This document shows positions 1 through 31,760 of a stretch of DNA of 64,000 bases, piece after piece. This stretch comes from Spirochaetota bacterium (GTDB lineage: Bacteria; Spirochaetota; GWB1-36-13; JAKPDD01). How positions within the stretch are numbered: the first letter of the stretch is position 1; every line of letters begins with the position of its first letter. The notes beneath the pieces were generated by a model. It ran no database searches and was not told the DNA's origin. It saw only the letters and a list, made by a program, of their open reading frames with translations. Position numbers and translations under genes: made by a program. The DNA is taken from contig JAKPDD010000043.1 in the NCBI GenBank assembly GCA_029552945.1, positions 70,516-134,515 on the forward strand, in the 5' to 3' direction.

Positions 1-1179
1 AATTTTATCAATATTTTGATAACTTTTTTCAATTTCTTGATTTATTTCTATACTATCTTCATCTATATAACCATCATATGAAATTATAGCAGCGTGAGAT
101 ATTATATTTTCTAATTCTCTTATGTTGCCAGGAAAGTCATATGATAATAATTTGTTAAGTGCTTTATCACTTATTCCTTTTACATTTATATTTTTTTCAA
201 TATTAAGTCTTTTTATAATAAATGTGATTATATCTTTGATATCTTCTTTTCTTTCTCTTAATGGTGGTATGTTTATTGGAAAAACATTTAAACGGTAGTA
301 TAGATCTTCTCTAAAATTACCTTTTTTTATCTCTTCCTTTAGATCTTTGTTTGTTGCTGCTATTATTCTTACATCTATTTTTATTGTTTTTTCTGAACCT
401 ACTGGTGTTATTTCAGATTCCTGAATTGCTCTTAATACTTTAACTTGTAAGTGTTGTGGCAACTCACCAACTTCATCAAGAAATAGAGTACCATTGTTTG
501 CAAGTAAAAACTTTCCTTTTTTATCTGAGTAAGCACCTGTAAAAGCACCTTTTGTATATCCAAATAGTTCACTTTCAAGAAGATTTTCAGGTATTGCCCC
601 ACAGTTTACTGCAACAAAAGGCATATTTTTTCTTCTACTGTAATAATGTATGGCTCTTGCAACTCTTTCTTTACCAACACCACTTTCCCCAGTTATTAGT
701 ACTGTTATATCCTTTTCTGCTATTTTTGCTATTTTTTTGTATACTTCCTGGATTTTTGCTGACTTACCTATTATAATATGTTTTTCTATAGCATCATTTT
801 TATTTATATTTTCAGTTTTCTGACTATCTATTTTTGAGTATATTACATTTTTTAATTCTTCAAAGTCAAATGGTTTTAATAAATATTCTGTTGCACCTTT
901 TTTTATTGCTTCTACTGCTGTTTCAAGGTCACCATGGGCTGTAATTATTATAATTGGGACATCTATTTTGTTTTTTCTTATCTCTTCAAGAAATTGGAGC
1001 CCACTTTTACCAGGCATTTTTATATCAAGTATTATTATAGATATATCTTCTTTGTTTTTATTTAAAATTTTCTCGGCTTCTTCTGGTGAATAACATGATA
1101 ATATATCTAGGTCTTTGAATACTCTTTTAAATGAATAATGGAAGTTCTTTTCATCATCTACTAATAAAATTTTTTTCAT
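1..1179 (-). CDS. NtrC-family sigma-54-dependent response regulator, C-terminus cut by window edge
   Basis: Two-component activator of sigma-54 RNA polymerase. The frame is open for 393 codons from ATG 1179 to base 1. Residues 1-120 form a receiver domain with the DD pair at 8-9, phospho-acceptor D52 (LDIKMPG) and the conserved lysine in LLKPF. The AAA+ domain that follows has Walker A GESGVGKE, the sigma-54 contact loop GAFTGA and Walker B LFLDEV, then FPGNIRELEN. The Fis-type DNA-binding helix must lie beyond the left edge. It starts 8 bp after the dnaJ stop, so it is probably the last gene of the grpE-dnaK-dnaJ transcript. No partner kinase is visible. Confidence 0.93.
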   Translation of the reverse strand, partial: MKKILLVDDEKNFHYSFKRVFKDLDILSCYSPEEAEKILNKNKEDISIIILDIKMPGKSGLQFLEEIRKNKIDVPIIIITAHGDLETAVEAIKKGATEYLLKPFDFEELKNVIYSKIDSQKTENINKNDAIEKHIIIGKSAKIQEVYKKIAKIAEKDITVLITGESGVGKERVARAIHYYSRRKNMPFVAVNCGAIPENLLESELFGYTKGAFTGAYSDKKGKFLLANNGTLFLDEVGELPQHLQVKVLRAIQESEITPVGSEKTIKIDVRIIAATNKDLKEEIKKGNFREDLYYRLNVFPINIPPLRERKEDIKDIITFIIKRLNIEKNINVKGISDKALNKLLSYDFPGNIRELENIISHAAIISYDGYIDEDSIEINQEIEKSYQNIDKI

Positions 1180-1187
1180 AAAATTTT

Positions 1188-2288
1188 CTATTTATAAAGT
1201 TCTTTTTCAAGTTCAATAAGTAATGATTCAGCTCTACTGCTTATTTTTGATGGGATGTCAGCATCTATCTTAACATATAGGTCTCCTCTTCTTGATGAAC
1301 CTACTATAGGCATTCCCATGTTTGGTATTTTAAGTAGTGTACCTATACTTGTTCCCTTAGGTACTTTTAATGATACTATACTACCATTTATATTTTTTAT
1401 CTTTATTTCACCACCAAGTATAAGTTTTGTTATAGGTACTTTTGTTTCAATAAAAAGGTCAGCTCCCTTTCTTTCAAAGATGTTATGTGGTTTTATATGT
1501 ATATGTATGTATAGATCACCAGGCCTACCCCCACCTTTACCGTGTTCACCCTCACCTGATATTTTAAGTCTTGTTCCGTCCTCAACTCCCTCTGGTATTT
1601 TTACTTTAACTTCACGGGTTACATTTACAAATCCTGTTCCTTTACAAGTCTTACATGGATTTTTTATTATTGTCCCTTCACCATTACACTGAGGGCATGT
1701 CTGTCTTATTGTAAATAGACCCTGTGATAGAATAGTCTCACCTCTTCCACCACACCTGGGGCATGTTATTATATCGCCATCTCTTTCTGTACCCCTTCCA
1801 TTACATGTACCACATGTCTCTTTTCTATTGAGTTTTATTATCTTATTTGTACCATTGTATGCTTCTTCAAGTGTTATTTCTATTTCAATAAGTATATCAC
1901 GACCATCATATGTTTTTTTGTTTGACTTTTTTCTTTGTCTTGTTCCAAATATATCGCCTAAGTCTTCAAAAATATCTTCAAAGTCTTCAAAAAAGCTTGA
2001 GAATCCTCCAAAGCCTGAACTACCAAAGTCAAAACCTCTTCTGAAACCACCTGTATTATATCCATTATTAAAAGCAGCATGCCCAAACTGGTCATAAGCC
2101 TTTCTCTTTTGAGGGTCTTTAAGTACTTCGTAAGCCTCATTTATCTCTTTAAACTTTTGTTCAGCTTCTTTATTACCAGGATTCCTGTCAGGGTGATATT
2201 GCATTGCAAGTTTTCTGTAAGCTTTTTTTATTTCATCTTCACTCGCATTTTTGGATACACCCAGGATTTCATAATAATCTTTTGGCAT
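1188..2288 (-). CDS. dnaJ: Chaperone DnaJ (Hsp40)
   Basis: Co-chaperone that delivers substrates to DnaK and stimulates its ATPase, in the cytoplasm. The 366 residues show the full type I layout: J domain 1-70 with the HPD tripeptide at 32-34, a Gly/Phe-rich linker at about 70-110, four zinc-binding CxxCxGxG repeats ([32 protein letters not shown]), then the substrate-binding domains. Length is normal. It lies 88 bp downstream of dnaK, separated by a strong hairpin, and is followed after 8 bp by a response-regulator gene. Confidence 0.98.
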
Positions 2289-2376: not shown

Positions 2377-4275
2377 TTATTTTTTATCTTTATCATCCAT
2401 TACTTCGTAATCTGTTTCCATAACTTTTTCATCACTTTTTTGTTCCTGATTATAGTTTTGCTGCCCTGTATTGCCAACGTTTTGGTATATTAATTGAGAT
2501 AGTGCATGTGATTCTTTTGTAAGTTCGTTATAAGCATTCTCTATTCTTGTTTTGTCATCAGTTTCTATAGCATCCTTAACATTTTTTATAGCTGCCTCGA
2601 TTCTTGCTTTCAGTGAAGGATCAACTCTGTTTTCATTTTCTTTTAATATCTTTTCTGTTGTGTATGCAAGTGTATCAGCTTTATTCTTAAGTTCTACAAG
2701 TTCTTTTCTCTTTCTGTCTTCTTCAGCATGCATTTCTGCCTCTCTTATCATTTTCTGTATCTCATCTTCTGTTAATCCACTTGAAGCCTGTATTCTTATA
2801 CTTTGCTGTTTGCCTGTACCAAGGTCTTTTGCTGAAACATGAAGAATCCCGTTTGCATCTATATCAAAAGTTACTTCTATCTGTGGAATTCCTCTTGGTG
2901 CAGGTGGTATTCCAATAAGGTCAAAACTTCCTATCAATTTATTATGAGCAGCTATTTCTCTTTCTCCTTGGTATACTCTTATAGATACTGCACTCTGGTT
3001 ATCTTCAGCAGTTGTAAATATTTGACTCTTTTTAGTAGGTATTGTTGTATTTCTTTCTATTATTTTAGTAAATACCCCACCTAATGTCTCAATACCAAGA
3101 GATAATGGTGTTACGTCAAGCAATAGAATATCTTTAACTTCACCAGCAAGAACACCAGCTTGAATTGCTGCACCTACTGCAACAACTTCATCAGGGTTAA
3201 TTTTTTTTGATGGTTCTTTTCCAAATATTTCTTTTGCTATTTCTTGAACTTTTGGTATTCTTGTTGAACCACCTACTAATAGTACTTCATCTATATCTTT
3301 TGGTGATAAACCAGCATCTTTTAAAGCTTTATAGCATGGTTCTTTTAATCTCTCAAGTATGTTTGCAACTATTCTTTCAAACTGTGCTCTTGTTAAAGTT
3401 TTGTTTATCTGTAATGGCTTACCATCTTTTGAAGCTATGAATGGTAGATTTATCTGTGTTGATTGAAGGTTTGAAAGCTCTTTTTTTGCTCTCTCAGCAG
3501 CATCTTTTAATCTTTGCATAGCAACAGGGTCTGTTGAAAGGTCAATACCATTTTCTTTTTTAAACTCGTCAACAAGCCAATCCATTATTGCCTGGTCAAG
3601 GTCATCACCACCAAGGTGTGTGTCTCCATTTGTTGATTTTACTTCAAATACTCCGTCTCCGAGTTCAAGTATTGATATATCGAATGTACCACCACCAAAG
3701 TCAAATACTGCGACTTTTATATTCTGGTTTTTTTTGTCAAGTCCATAAGCAAGTGCAGCCGCAGTAGGTTCATTAAGGATTCTCATTACTTCAAGACCTG
3801 CAATTCTTCCTGCATCTTTTGTTGCCTGTCTTTGTGCATCATTAAAGTAAGCTGGCACTGTTATTACTGCTTTTTCTATTTTTTCACCTAAGAAGCTTTC
3901 AGCAGCCTCTTTTAATTTTTTCAATACCATTGCAGATATTTGTGGTGGTGCAAAGTCTCCTGCTCTTGTTTTTACTCTTACATCTCCATTAGGTCCCTGA
4001 ATTACATCGTATGGTACTGTTTTTATTTCTGATCCTACTTCAGCATATTTTCTTCCCATAAATCTTTTTATTGATCTTATTGTGTTTTTAGGGTTTGTTA
4101 TCATTTGGTTTTTAGCCTGTTGCCCTACAAGTATTTCACCATTTTCAGTAAAGGCAACTACAGAAGGTGTTAATCTATCACCTTCTTGATTTGGGATAAC
4201 CTCTGGTTCATTACCCATTATTACAGCAACAACAGAGTTTGTTGTACCAAGGTCAATTCCTATTATCTTTCCCAT
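2377..4275 (-). CDS. dnaK: Chaperone DnaK (Hsp70)
   Basis: ATP-dependent protein-folding chaperone. Its 632 residues begin with the nucleotide-binding signature [10 protein letters not shown] and include [10 protein letters not shown] and [14 protein letters not shown]. The substrate-binding domain follows from about residue 385 ([14 protein letters not shown]). The tail ends in acidic, charged residues (MDDKDKK), usual for bacterial DnaK. The start is set by GGAGAGG a few bases before ATG 4275. It is second in the grpE-dnaK-dnaJ operon. Confidence 0.99.
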
Positions 4276-4339: not shown

Positions 4340-4999
4340 TTATTTTTTTTCTTCATTTTCTTTTTCTTCTACTTTTTTTTCTTTTGGTGTACCAACTCCA
4401 ACTTTACCTATTCTTATTACTTTTTCTCCCATTATGTATGGTTTTTCTATCTCCTCTACTACTATTATTTTATCATAGTCACCTTCTTTCTGATAAAGTG
4501 CATTGTGTATTTTTGGATCAAACTCTTTTCCAATTGAATCTATTGGTTTTACATTATAATTACTTGATAGTATACTTAAAAACATATCTTTTATTAGTGA
4601 TATTCCATTTAATAGTGCATCTATATCTTTTGTCTCTTTAGCAGCATTTATAGCCCTCTCAAGGTTATCTATTATTGGTAGAAAGTCTAATATTATTTTT
4701 TCGGAGAGTATCTGATTAAGTACCTTTTTTTCCTCGATTGTTCTCTTTCTTAAATTATCAAAGTCAGCTACTTTTCTTTTTATAAGTTCTTCATACTCTT
4801 TTAGTTTTGTTTCAAGTTCCTGAATCTTTGTTATAATTTCATCATTTTTATTTTCTTCTTTTTTATTATCTTTTTCATCAGTATTATTCTCATCTATACT
4901 ATTTTTTTCATCTAGTTTTTTTTCATTATTCAAATTATCCTCCATTAATACTTCGGAATTGTTTTTAGTATTATCTTTTTTTATACTCTCTTTATCCAT
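4340..4999 (-). CDS. grpE: Nucleotide exchange factor GrpE
   Basis: Releases ADP from DnaK. Of 219 residues, the first 60 are low-complexity, Asn/Glu/Lys-rich and probably disordered. A long helix follows (about 60-100, ELETKLKEYEELIKRKVADF), and the beta domain carries the family-like stretch GKEFDPKIHNALYQKEG and the terminal VRIGKVGVGTPK-type strand. The start ATG 4999 has a very strong GGGAGGGGG site. It is first in the hsp operon; a sigma-54-like element lies about 37 bp upstream, and I see no CIRCE (HrcA) operator. Confidence 0.96.
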   Translation of the reverse strand: MDKESIKKDNTKNNSEVLMEDNLNNEKKLDEKNSIDENNTDEKDNKKEENKNDEIITKIQELETKLKEYEELIKRKVADFDNLRKRTIEEKKVLNQILSEKIILDFLPIIDNLERAINAAKETKDIDALLNGISLIKDMFLSILSSNYNVKPIDSIGKEFDPKIHNALYQKEGDYDKIIVVEEIEKPYIMGEKVIRIGKVGVGTPKEKKVEEKENEEKK

Positions 5000-5035
5000 A
5001 ATCCCCCTCCCTGATGTTTTTTAATAAACTCTACA

Positions 5036-5051
5036 GCAAAAAAAATGCCAA
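5036..5051 (-). promoter_or_regulatory. Candidate sigma-54 (-24/-12) promoter of grpE-dnaK-dnaJ
   Basis: Minus-strand sequence TTGGCATTTTTTTTGCT, reading from 5051, has GG and GC separated by exactly 10 bases, as in the sigma-54 consensus TGGCAC-N5-TTGC. The GC dinucleotide (5037-5036) would place transcription start near 5024, about 25 bp before grpE. The same TTGGCA could instead be a sigma-70 -35 box with a weak TTTATT -10 box after 17 bp. rpoN and an NtrC-type activator are both in this window. Confidence 0.5.
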
Positions 5052-5120
5052 CTTTTGAGAAATAAAAAAGGCTTTAAAAACGATAAAGAAAATAAAATTT
5101 TAACTTTAAAATTTTAAAAG

Positions 5121-5161
5121 AGGTGTTATATGTTTAATTTTGACTACACCATATAACACCT
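5121..5161 (-). terminator. Rho-independent terminator after leuB-like gene
   Basis: AGGTGTTATATG (minus strand 5161-5150) pairs perfectly with CATATAACACCT (5132-5121) over 12 bp, with a 17-nt loop, followed by CTTTTAAAATTTT on the minus strand. It separates the serC-serA-leuB transcript from the heat-shock operon. Confidence 0.75.
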
Positions 5162-5178
5162 TGTATCAAAAGGAAACA

Positions 5179-6237
5179 TTATATGCTATCTGCTATCATG
5201 TCTCCGATTTCTGTTGTAGAATATCCCATTTTGCCGGCTGCCATTGACTTCATTTTTAATATTGTTTTTTGTACAGATTCTTCTATCTTTTTAGCCATTT
5301 CAACTTCACCTAAATGTTCCATCATCATTTTACCTGCAAGTATAGCAGCTATAGGGTTTATAACATTTTTACCAGTATATTTAGGAGCTGAACCACCTAT
5401 TGGTTCAAACATTGATACACCTTCTGGGTTAATATTTCCTCCTGCTGCAACACCAAGCCCTCCACCTACAACAGCACCAAGGTCGGTTATTATATCACCA
5501 AACATATTGTCGGTTACTATAACATCAAACCATTCAGGATTTTTTACCATCCACATTGTTATAGCATCAACATGGGCGTAATCTGTTTTTATGTCTGGAT
5601 AATTTTTAGCTATCTCGTTAAATACTCTTTCCCATAATCCAAACGCATAGGTTAAAACATTAGTTTTTCCACAGAGTGTAAGCTGTTTCTTTTTACTATT
5701 TCTTTTTTTTGTATATTCAAAAGCGTATTTTATACACCTTTCAACGCCAAACCTTGTGTTTATTGACTCTTGTATTGCAACCTCATATTGAGTACCTTCT
5801 CTTAATATTCCACCACCACCTGCGTATAAGCCCTCAGTGTTTTCTCTTATTACAACAAAGTCTATATCTTCAGGCCCTTTGTCTTTTATTGGCGTTTCAA
5901 CATTTTGATATAATTTTACAGGTCTTAAGTTTATATATTGATCAAGTGCAAATCTCATTTTTAGTAGTATCCCTCTTTCCAAGATACCTGGTTTTACATC
6001 AGGGCTTCCTATTGCACCAAGATATATTGCATCAAACTTTTTTAAGTCTTCTATTGCAGAATCAGGGAGCGTTTCTCCTGTTTTTAAATATCTTTTTGCA
6101 CCAAAATCAAACTCTGTAAACTCAATTTTTACACCAAATTTAGGAGCAGCAGCGTTAAGTACTTTTATACCTTCTCTTATTACCTCAGGTCCTGTACCAT
6201 CTCCGCCTATAACTGCTATTTTATAGTTTTTTGACAT
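5179..6237 (-). CDS. leuB: 3-isopropylmalate dehydrogenase-type beta-decarboxylating dehydrogenase
   Basis: NAD-dependent oxidative decarboxylase of the isocitrate/isopropylmalate family. The 352 residues fit IPMDH length. It has the N-terminal GGDGTGPEV, the substrate-binding stretch LLKMRFALDQYINLRP, RENTEGLYAG, and the metal/cofactor segment TDNMFGDIITDLGA. The LERGILLKMRF context resembles actinobacterial-type LeuB rather than isocitrate dehydrogenase. No leuA/leuC/leuD is nearby; instead it follows serA by 9 bp, so a related substrate such as malate or tartrate cannot be excluded. It is last in the serC-serA operon. Confidence 0.8.
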   Translation of the reverse strand: MSKNYKIAVIGGDGTGPEVIREGIKVLNAAAPKFGVKIEFTEFDFGAKRYLKTGETLPDSAIEDLKKFDAIYLGAIGSPDVKPGILERGILLKMRFALDQYINLRPVKLYQNVETPIKDKGPEDIDFVVIRENTEGLYAGGGGILREGTQYEVAIQESINTRFGVERCIKYAFEYTKKRNSKKKQLTLCGKTNVLTYAFGLWERVFNEIAKNYPDIKTDYAHVDAITMWMVKNPEWFDVIVTDNMFGDIITDLGAVVGGGLGVAAGGNINPEGVSMFEPIGGSAPKYTGKNVINPIAAILAGKMMMEHLGEVEMAKKIEESVQKTILKMKSMAAGKMGYSTTEIGDMIADSI

Positions 6238-30275: not shown

Positions 30276-31760
30276 GTGAGAAATGGTACATTTATAAAAC
30301 AGACTCAAAGACAGATATTAGCACCGTTAATTCAACAAAATATTCAGATATTACTAATGAATACAACTGACCTTATACAGGAAATAAATAGAAAAATTGA
30401 AGAAAATCCATTTCTTGAGATAGAAAATGATATAAATGATAATAAAGTAAGAGATAAGGTTAATAAGGCAAAAGAGATTATAAAGAATAGGGATGAATAT
30501 TTAGAAAACCTTGTTATAAAAGATATATATGAGGATACTAATGATTTTTATTTTGATAAGAGGTCTTATGAAGATTCAACCAGCGATACAAAACAATTTT
30601 TTCTAACTAATGCAATATACAATAAAGAGACTCTCTATGATGATCTTAAAAAACAGATAAGCCTTCTTGATCTTGATAATGAGGAGAAGAAGATAGCAGA
30701 TATTATAATATCATCACTTAATAATCATGGACTTCTTGTTACAAGTGTTGAAGAGATAGCAAAATATTTGGAGACAAGTGTTGCTAAGGTTGAAAATGTT
30801 CTTAAGAAGATTCAGAATCTTGACCCACCGGGGATAGGTTCAAGGTCAATTAGTGAATATGTTCTTACGCAATTAGAAAAAAAGTTTTCAAAAGAATCTG
30901 AGCTTTATAAAATAGCTTACGAATATTTCAGAGTCTTTCAAGAGATAGAAAACTCATTTTCAAAAAAAAGTGATAGTGATGAAAATATTGCTGATATTAT
31001 AAAGAAAAAGACAGTAGATGAGATTTCGGTAAGGTTAGGTTATCCAAAAAATTATATAATATCATGTCTAAAAAAAATAGAGAAAGAGGTTGATTCTTTA
31101 CCAGAAATAAGTAATGAAGGAAATGCTGTTTATATAATACCTGATATAATAGTAAGTATAAATAAAAAAGATATGAGTCTTGAACTTAAAGTATTTGATG
31201 AGTATTTACCAAGAATAAAACTTAATTCAGATTATAAACAGGCTATAAAAAAGAAGAGGGGGGAAGATGTAAATGATGAAATAAAAGAGTTAAAAGAAAA
31301 ATATCAGGAAGCAAAAATTTTTATAAACTCTTTACAGAGAAGAACGTCAACACTTTATGAACTTGCATCAAAACTTGCTGAAATACAGAAAGAGTTTTTC
31401 TTTTATGGCCCTTCACATATAAAACCACTTACTGTAAAAGAGATGGCTGAAATTTTAAGGGTAAACGATTCAACAGTGAGCAGGATAATAAATAATAAAT
31501 ATATATTAACTCCATTTGGTATATATCCTCTGAAATACCTTTTTTCTCATAAAGTTGATTCATCTTACGGGGAAGTATCAGCAAAAAAAGTTTATGAAAT
31601 GATAAAAAAGATTATAGAAAATGAGGGCAATAATTCAAAATTGAGTGATGTAAAGATCCAGCAGATATTAAATAGTCAGGGGATAAAAATATCAAGGAGA
31701 ACTGTTGCTAAGTATAGACAAAAATTAAATATAAAGTCTTCTTTTCAAAGAAAATCTTAA
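30276..31760 (+). CDS. rpoN: RNA polymerase sigma-54 factor
   Basis: 494 residues. Region I is Gln/Leu-rich (FIKQTQRQILAPLIQQNIQI), the activator-responsive segment. The core-binding domain includes the NLDPPGIGSRSISEYVLTQL stretch in two parts. The C-terminus carries a helix-turn-helix (TVKEMAEILRVNDSTVSRIINNKYI) that recognises -12, and the RpoN box SRRTVAKYRQKL that recognises -24. The start is GTG 30276. hpf follows 11 bp later, the order seen in many bacteria. Confidence 0.97.
   Translation: MRNGTFIKQTQRQILAPLIQQNIQILLMNTTDLIQEINRKIEENPFLEIENDINDNKVRDKVNKAKEIIKNRDEYLENLVIKDIYEDTNDFYFDKRSYEDSTSDTKQFFLTNAIYNKETLYDDLKKQISLLDLDNEEKKIADIIISSLNNHGLLVTSVEEIAKYLETSVAKVENVLKKIQNLDPPGIGSRSISEYVLTQLEKKFSKESELYKIAYEYFRVFQEIENSFSKKSDSDENIADIIKKKTVDEISVRLGYPKNYIISCLKKIEKEVDSLPEISNEGNAVYIIPDIIVSINKKDMSLELKVFDEYLPRIKLNSDYKQAIKKKRGEDVNDEIKELKEKYQEAKIFINSLQRRTSTLYELASKLAEIQKEFFFYGPSHIKPLTVKEMAEILRVNDSTVSRIINNKYILTPFGIYPLKYLFSHKVDSSYGEVSAKKVYEMIKKIIENEGNNSKLSDVKIQQILNSQGIKISRRTVAKYRQKLNIKSSFQRKS

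Follow-up and report, generated by a model that had tools for sequence, protein, structure and literature searches.

Bacterial heat-shock control is commonly described in terms of sigma-32 or HrcA, and in many bacteria the HrcA/CIRCE system controls grpE-dnaK-dnaJ by repression. The pattern GG-N10-GC is the -24/-12 consensus of sigma-54 promoters. In Flavobacterium psychrophilum, sigma-54 elements with mapped starts precede groES-groEL, lon, dnaK, grpE-dnaJ, htpG and clpB, according to the passages of that study drawn on here (PMC9723704). The relevant part of a comparative study predicts sigma-54 promoters before a cluster of GrpE, DnaK, DnaJ and IbpA that is enriched in Bacteroidota and Planctomycetota, and names a different protease cluster for Spirochaetia (PMC12316311). 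Passages on Myxococcus xanthus HsfBA describe a kinase and the NtrC-like HsfA, which directly control lonD (PMC9109919), while those on Escherichia coli ibpB describe a sigma-54-dependent promoter in an operon mainly under sigma-32 (PMC4316790). For spirochetes, an average of one or two sigma-54 activators is given in the portion of PMC3162934 cited here, and the matching passages on Desulfovibrio contain no chaperone target (PMC4641369).

The preliminary description of the present locus had called sigma-54 control of grpE-dnaK-dnaJ uncommon, which is fair, though such control is known in Bacteroidota and the principle is thus already established. Among the best matches of our literature search, mostly freely accessible work, we recognised none on sigma-54 heat-shock control in spirochaetes. 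Use of this control in the phylum, its link with a missing HrcA and an activator gene ending the dnaK operon were not found in the literature searched.

The window, that is, the whole stretch of 64,000 nucleotides analysed here, contains the following features.

1..1179, minus strand: 5′ part of a gene for an NtrC-type sigma-54 activator (ATG at 1179), continuing beyond the window start
1188..2288, minus strand: dnaJ, above the DnaJ cut-offs
2377..4275, minus strand: dnaK, above the DnaK cut-offs
4340..4999, minus strand: grpE
5035..5050, minus strand: putative -24/-12 sigma-54 promoter element TGGCATTTTTTTTGCT, with GG-N10-GC, upstream of grpE
5121..5161, minus strand: perfect inverted repeat of 12 bp enclosing a loop of 17 nt, 71-111 bp 5′ of the element
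5179..6237, minus strand: gene of the isocitrate/isopropylmalate dehydrogenase family, upstream of grpE
30276..31760, plus strand: rpoN, with the activator-interacting, core-binding and DNA-binding domains

The activator start codon lies 8 nt past the dnaJ stop, and the spacing suggests that grpE, dnaK, dnaJ and the activator gene are co-transcribed. A sigma-70-family gene of 300 residues lies just outside the window start (L009:153-1055 (+); G000 C12:69441-70343), convergent with the activator gene and overlapping its 3′ end by 8 nt. As a candidate heat-shock sigma factor it was set aside, having passed the superfamily cut-off alone (best 25 of 43 families).

The locus shares with F. psychrophilum the presence of -24/-12 elements at several chaperone operons, here those of grpE, clpB and hsp20; however, that bacterium belongs to another phylum, and the passages considered name no activator gene in its chaperone operons, whereas the operon described here adjoins one (PMC9723704). 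The genes are the same set as in the predicted cluster, whose reported enrichment concerns Bacteroidota and Planctomycetota (PMC12316311). NtrC-like control of a heat-shock gene would be common to this locus and HsfBA, which in the part cited acts on the single gene lonD and not on a dnaK operon (PMC9109919), and a sigma-54 promoter before a small heat-shock gene is a likeness between ibpB, as described in the cited portion, and hsp20 here (PMC4316790).

The GG-N10-GC element that had first drawn attention to this region was confirmed at 5035-5050, where it matches TGGCAY-N5-TTGCW perfectly. On the minus strand, its GG occupies 5049-5048 and its GC 5037-5036, and 35 nt separate the 3′ end of the 16-mer from the grpE ATG (4999). 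The minus-strand sequence upstream of grpE that contains the element is AAAAGTTGGCATTTTTTTTGCTGTAGAG, and GGGAGGGGG stands directly 5′ of the ATG. The grpE transcript would be expected to start near 5024, about 12 nt past the GC. Perfect matches occur nine times on both strands of the 1.87-Mb genome, the grpE element being one of them, which corresponds to a chance of about 3 in 10,000 for a 150-bp upstream stretch on the correct strand. Six of the nine are located just upstream of an apparent start codon and three within coding sequence. A control with the reversed pattern (9 versus 136 at up to one mismatch) is an unfair null, as its base order differs. When the upstream regions of the 54 window genes with an ATG start and at least 100 aa were scanned with a -24/-12 matrix, hand-made from the consensus, grpE alone reached a score of at least 8 (15.9), and the runner-up scored 6.7.

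The same bases had also been read as a sigma-70 -35 box, in which case the GG/GC spacing would be a coincidence. This reading stands insofar as TTGGCA matches five of the six positions of TTGACA; it is weakened by the best -10 hexamer at a distance of 16-18 nt, TTTATT, which matches four of six, and by a general scan that found no sigma-70-like site on the minus strand of 5000-5178. At grpE of G010, TATGAT lies 16 nt beyond the equivalent of TTGGCA, and for 9 of the 23 promoters compared, the best-matching hexamer at 16-18 nt carries both A2 and T6. On the other hand, GG is present in 23/23 and GC in 18/23 of the promoters, which were selected with a matrix favouring GG and GC, and elements also occur at clpB and hsp20, with none at groEL. 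A sigma-70 promoter at this site is highly improbable.

Further upstream, the stretch at 5121-5161 folds better than 200/200 shuffles (z -3.35). The inverted repeat may be the terminator of the 5179-6237 gene or an activator binding site.

No match to HrcA was detected in this genome, and HrcA is present in 12 of the 60 genomes searched; GrpE is present in 58 of the 60. The absence of a CIRCE operator, claimed in the preliminary description, was borne out across the 64,000-nt window at up to three mismatches, and the 800 bp upstream of groEL in this genome likewise contained none at up to four substitutions. On these grounds, HrcA/CIRCE control of the dnaK operon was rejected; where that system acts by repression, the present case would be one of activation. 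RpoH above the curated cut-off was found in 0/11 genomes, the best score in the present genome being 164.3 as against 323.1 bits. A sigma-32 regulon was also rejected by this cut-off, with the proviso that the model is proteobacterial and a divergent RpoH could escape it.

To compare grpE promoters, the region 5′ of grpE, to a maximum of 400 bp, was scanned in 49 genomes plus the present one, and a score of at least 11 was counted as an element. Nine of the 49 other genomes have an element before grpE, the next best score being 9.7: all six genomes of family f11 (17.5-18.8), G052 (17.5) and two f28 genomes (11.8 and 12.1). None of the seven HrcA-bearing genomes scanned has one (scores up to 5.5); the other five of the 12 with HrcA (G017, G028, G039, G049 and G054) fell outside the scan, which did not take in L072, L095, L099, L100, L107, L110 and L111 (no tblastn match), L076 (no start found) and a partial match in G053. 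Among the 42 HrcA-less genomes scanned, 33, including G001, showed no grpE element within 400 bp, indicating that loss of HrcA alone does not imply sigma-54 control. Four distant GrpE loci found by a contig search had best upstream scores of 7.7-10.1, which adds no information either way.

An element precedes clpB in six of the eight genomes with a full-length match (G033 and G010 being without) and hsp20 in seven of nine genomes tested, a count that leaves out the hsp20 pieces of G052 and in which both f28 genomes lack the element; within f11, five of six genomes have one at clpB or hsp20. No groEL element was detected in ten genomes (the present one, G001, six f11 and two f28; best score 6.1), whereas groESL is included in F. 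psychrophilum, as the cited passages have it (PMC9723704). Upstream of groEL in 20 other genomes, the best score was 11.5 (G043). Scores of at least 11 were obtained for 2/77 genes in the present genome, 3/29 in G001, 14/100 in f11 and 4/50 in f28, in background stretches that came for the most part from the surroundings of chaperone or activator genes. Of these 23 elements, 21 belong to grpE, clpB or the first hsp20 gene. The two exceptions lie upstream of an activator gene in G001 (score 18.1) and of dnaJ in G057, where the match is weak (11.4). In five of the 23, the -12 position reads GA or GT (hsp20 of the present genome and of G001, and L130, L131 and L221 of f28), which may weaken the promoter or reflect a different RpoN preference. 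L130 also contains a flagellin-like open reading frame.

G001 is the sole relative of the same order, and belongs to a different family. Its genes are arranged in the row hsp20-hsp20-hsp20-grpE-dnaK-dnaJ-activator, with the activator gene overlapping dnaJ by 4 nt. No good element was found within 400 bp directly before its grpE, and TGGCACGCTTTTTGAT starts 53 nt before the first hsp20 ATG. In the present genome, the three hsp20 genes form a separate locus, and TGGCACGCTTATTGAT starts 58 nt before the first of them. Both hsp20 sequences have GA in place of the standard GC, a GG-N10-GA variant. The clpB gene is preceded by TGGCACATTTTTTGCT in both genomes, which is a perfect element in the present one. 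Conservation of GG-N10-GC before grpE, which the preliminary description had proposed to check in relatives, hence largely holds: an element is seen in all six f11 genomes, in G052 and, more weakly, in two f28 genomes, but not in G001, where the GA variant heads the hsp20-grpE row. The comparison across genomes likewise supports its reading of the heat-shock operon promoter as one for sigma-54. From these sequence comparisons, we are confident that 5035-5050 is a working sigma-54 promoter for grpE-dnaK-dnaJ, very likely for the activator gene too, within a small chaperone regulon.

This regulon would comprise the grpE operon, clpB and, via the GG-N10-GA variant, the hsp20 cluster. Besides those of grpE and clpB, perfect elements in the present genome precede two other genes, one phasin-like although below the Pfam cut-off and one encoding a 116-residue protein without known family; two more, identical in sequence, stand before a start codon at contig ends. 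The non-chaperone perfect elements are at L020, L017, L023 and L025. The elements at the phasin-like gene and the gene of no known function indicate that the regulon here is wider than chaperones, and they speak for a sigma-54 promoter that answers to a general stress or nutrient signal instead of heat, with the chaperones part of a broader regulon. Against this, 13 of the 14 f11 genes scoring at least 11 are grpE, clpB or hsp20, in stretches fetched around such genes, and the remaining one is a weaker match before dnaJ. A general signal is a possibility to be taken seriously, yet one we hold to be doubtful. For the chaperone regulon proposed above, we infer that the element is in use and responds to heat or misfolding.

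The machinery for such a promoter is present. The genome encodes a complete RpoN with all three sigma-54 domains and seven strong sigma-54 activators. The activator behind dnaJ is an NtrC-type response regulator of 452 aa, consisting of a receiver domain, an AAA+ domain with the GAFTGA motif and a Fis-type HTH. It is 58.5% identical to its G001 counterpart, and the two are paired with 100/100 support in a tree of 32 activators; the layout with the activator behind dnaJ is shared by two families of the order. RNA polymerase carrying RpoN would sit at the element as a closed complex; an NtrC-type AAA+ activator, probably activated through phosphorylation of the receiver domain, would then open this complex.

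Which activator does this is a separate matter. In the 32-row tree, the six f11 activators cluster with another activator of the present genome, L010 (support 99/96), and the f11 activator was therefore rejected as an orthologue of the one behind dnaJ. L010 or yet another activator could work the grpE promoter, the one behind dnaJ being a passenger or serving other genes. In favour of this arrangement, the f11 activator to which L010 is orthologous is the sole one found in f11, and one 9/10 match to the f11 dyad described below lies before grpE of the present genome, a match also reached by 26/200 shuffles; the layout kept in two families of the order argues against it, and we regard the arrangement as conceivable without expecting it. 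Our guess leans slightly towards the activator behind dnaJ, and not L010 or another of the seven, as the one that acts at the grpE promoter. If so, a self-amplifying loop would result.

Some other activator genes also have elements nearby. In G001 (L165), the near-perfect element TGGCACACAAATTGCA starts 128 nt 5′ of another activator gene, which is perhaps a case of autoregulation. The distant relatives that best match the activator behind dnaJ belong to families f5 and f23 (L267, L268, L270, L272, L273 and L275) and are followed by a sigma-70-family gene; a sigma-54-like element (12.7-17.5) is located some 1.2-1.3 kb 5′ of their activator gene. The arrangement resembles an activator-to-sigma-factor cascade.

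In f11, the circuit is simpler to describe. Each of the six genomes has exactly one sigma-54 activator (E 1e-30), with a histidine kinase gene adjoining it in 6/6, and rpoN is present in one copy in each of the three genomes searched. The perfect pattern TGGCAY-N5-TTGCW occurs at 42 places in the six genomes, of which 30 were examined. Eighteen of these are within open reading frames of at least 120 codons, and nine of the 12 outside long reading frames precede grpE, clpB or hsp20. Three perfect elements (L216, L196 and L209) have no open reading frame of at least 60 codons starting within 200 nt; small-RNA or distant targets are possible for them. In three f11 genomes (L124, L126 and L127), several genes for putative ankyrin-repeat proteins lie between dnaK and dnaJ.

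The upstream regions of f11 also share a dyad, TGTAT-N7-ATACA, which was spotted by eye in the same sequences prior to testing. At a match of at least 9/10, 27 occurrences were counted, spread over 12 of the 13 heat-shock upstream regions, against 0.94 on average and at most 6 in 200 shuffles; with spacers of 5, 6, 8 and 9, the occurrences are 4, 0, 1 and 3. When all 5-base dyads were enumerated, this one ranked first, with AT-only shuffle dyads near it in the number of regions. The dyad would look like an enhancer pair for the sole f11 activator. When the present genome and G001 were searched for an enhancer dyad common to both, nothing rose above shuffles, and the single spacer-7 match before grpE of the present genome has to be set against shuffles of the regions of both genomes. 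A spacer-8 form of the f11 dyad was found in 2/5 of these regions, both from G001, and in 0/200 shuffles, yet it was discarded as one of 20 tests (group-and-spacer combinations).

Taken over the phylum, we tentatively suggest that a dedicated sigma-54 heat-shock circuit replaces HrcA in part of it, with details for the present order and for f11; this extension may well prove too broad. The sigma-54 mode of chaperone control has so far been reported in Bacteroidota and predicted in Planctomycetota, in the portions of the literature examined. In the present genome and several other HrcA-less ones, chaperone genes seem to be transcribed by an ATP-driven, activator-dependent polymerase. If the circuit is true for the present order, the activator gene, standing last in the chaperone operon, would make the response self-amplifying, and shut-off by rising free chaperone would be possible. 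In f11, heat shock would be the main task of the sole activator, together with its neighbouring kinase and a TGTAT-N7-ATACA enhancer pair, and with a single activator per genome the circuit could be addressed by one or two gene removals.
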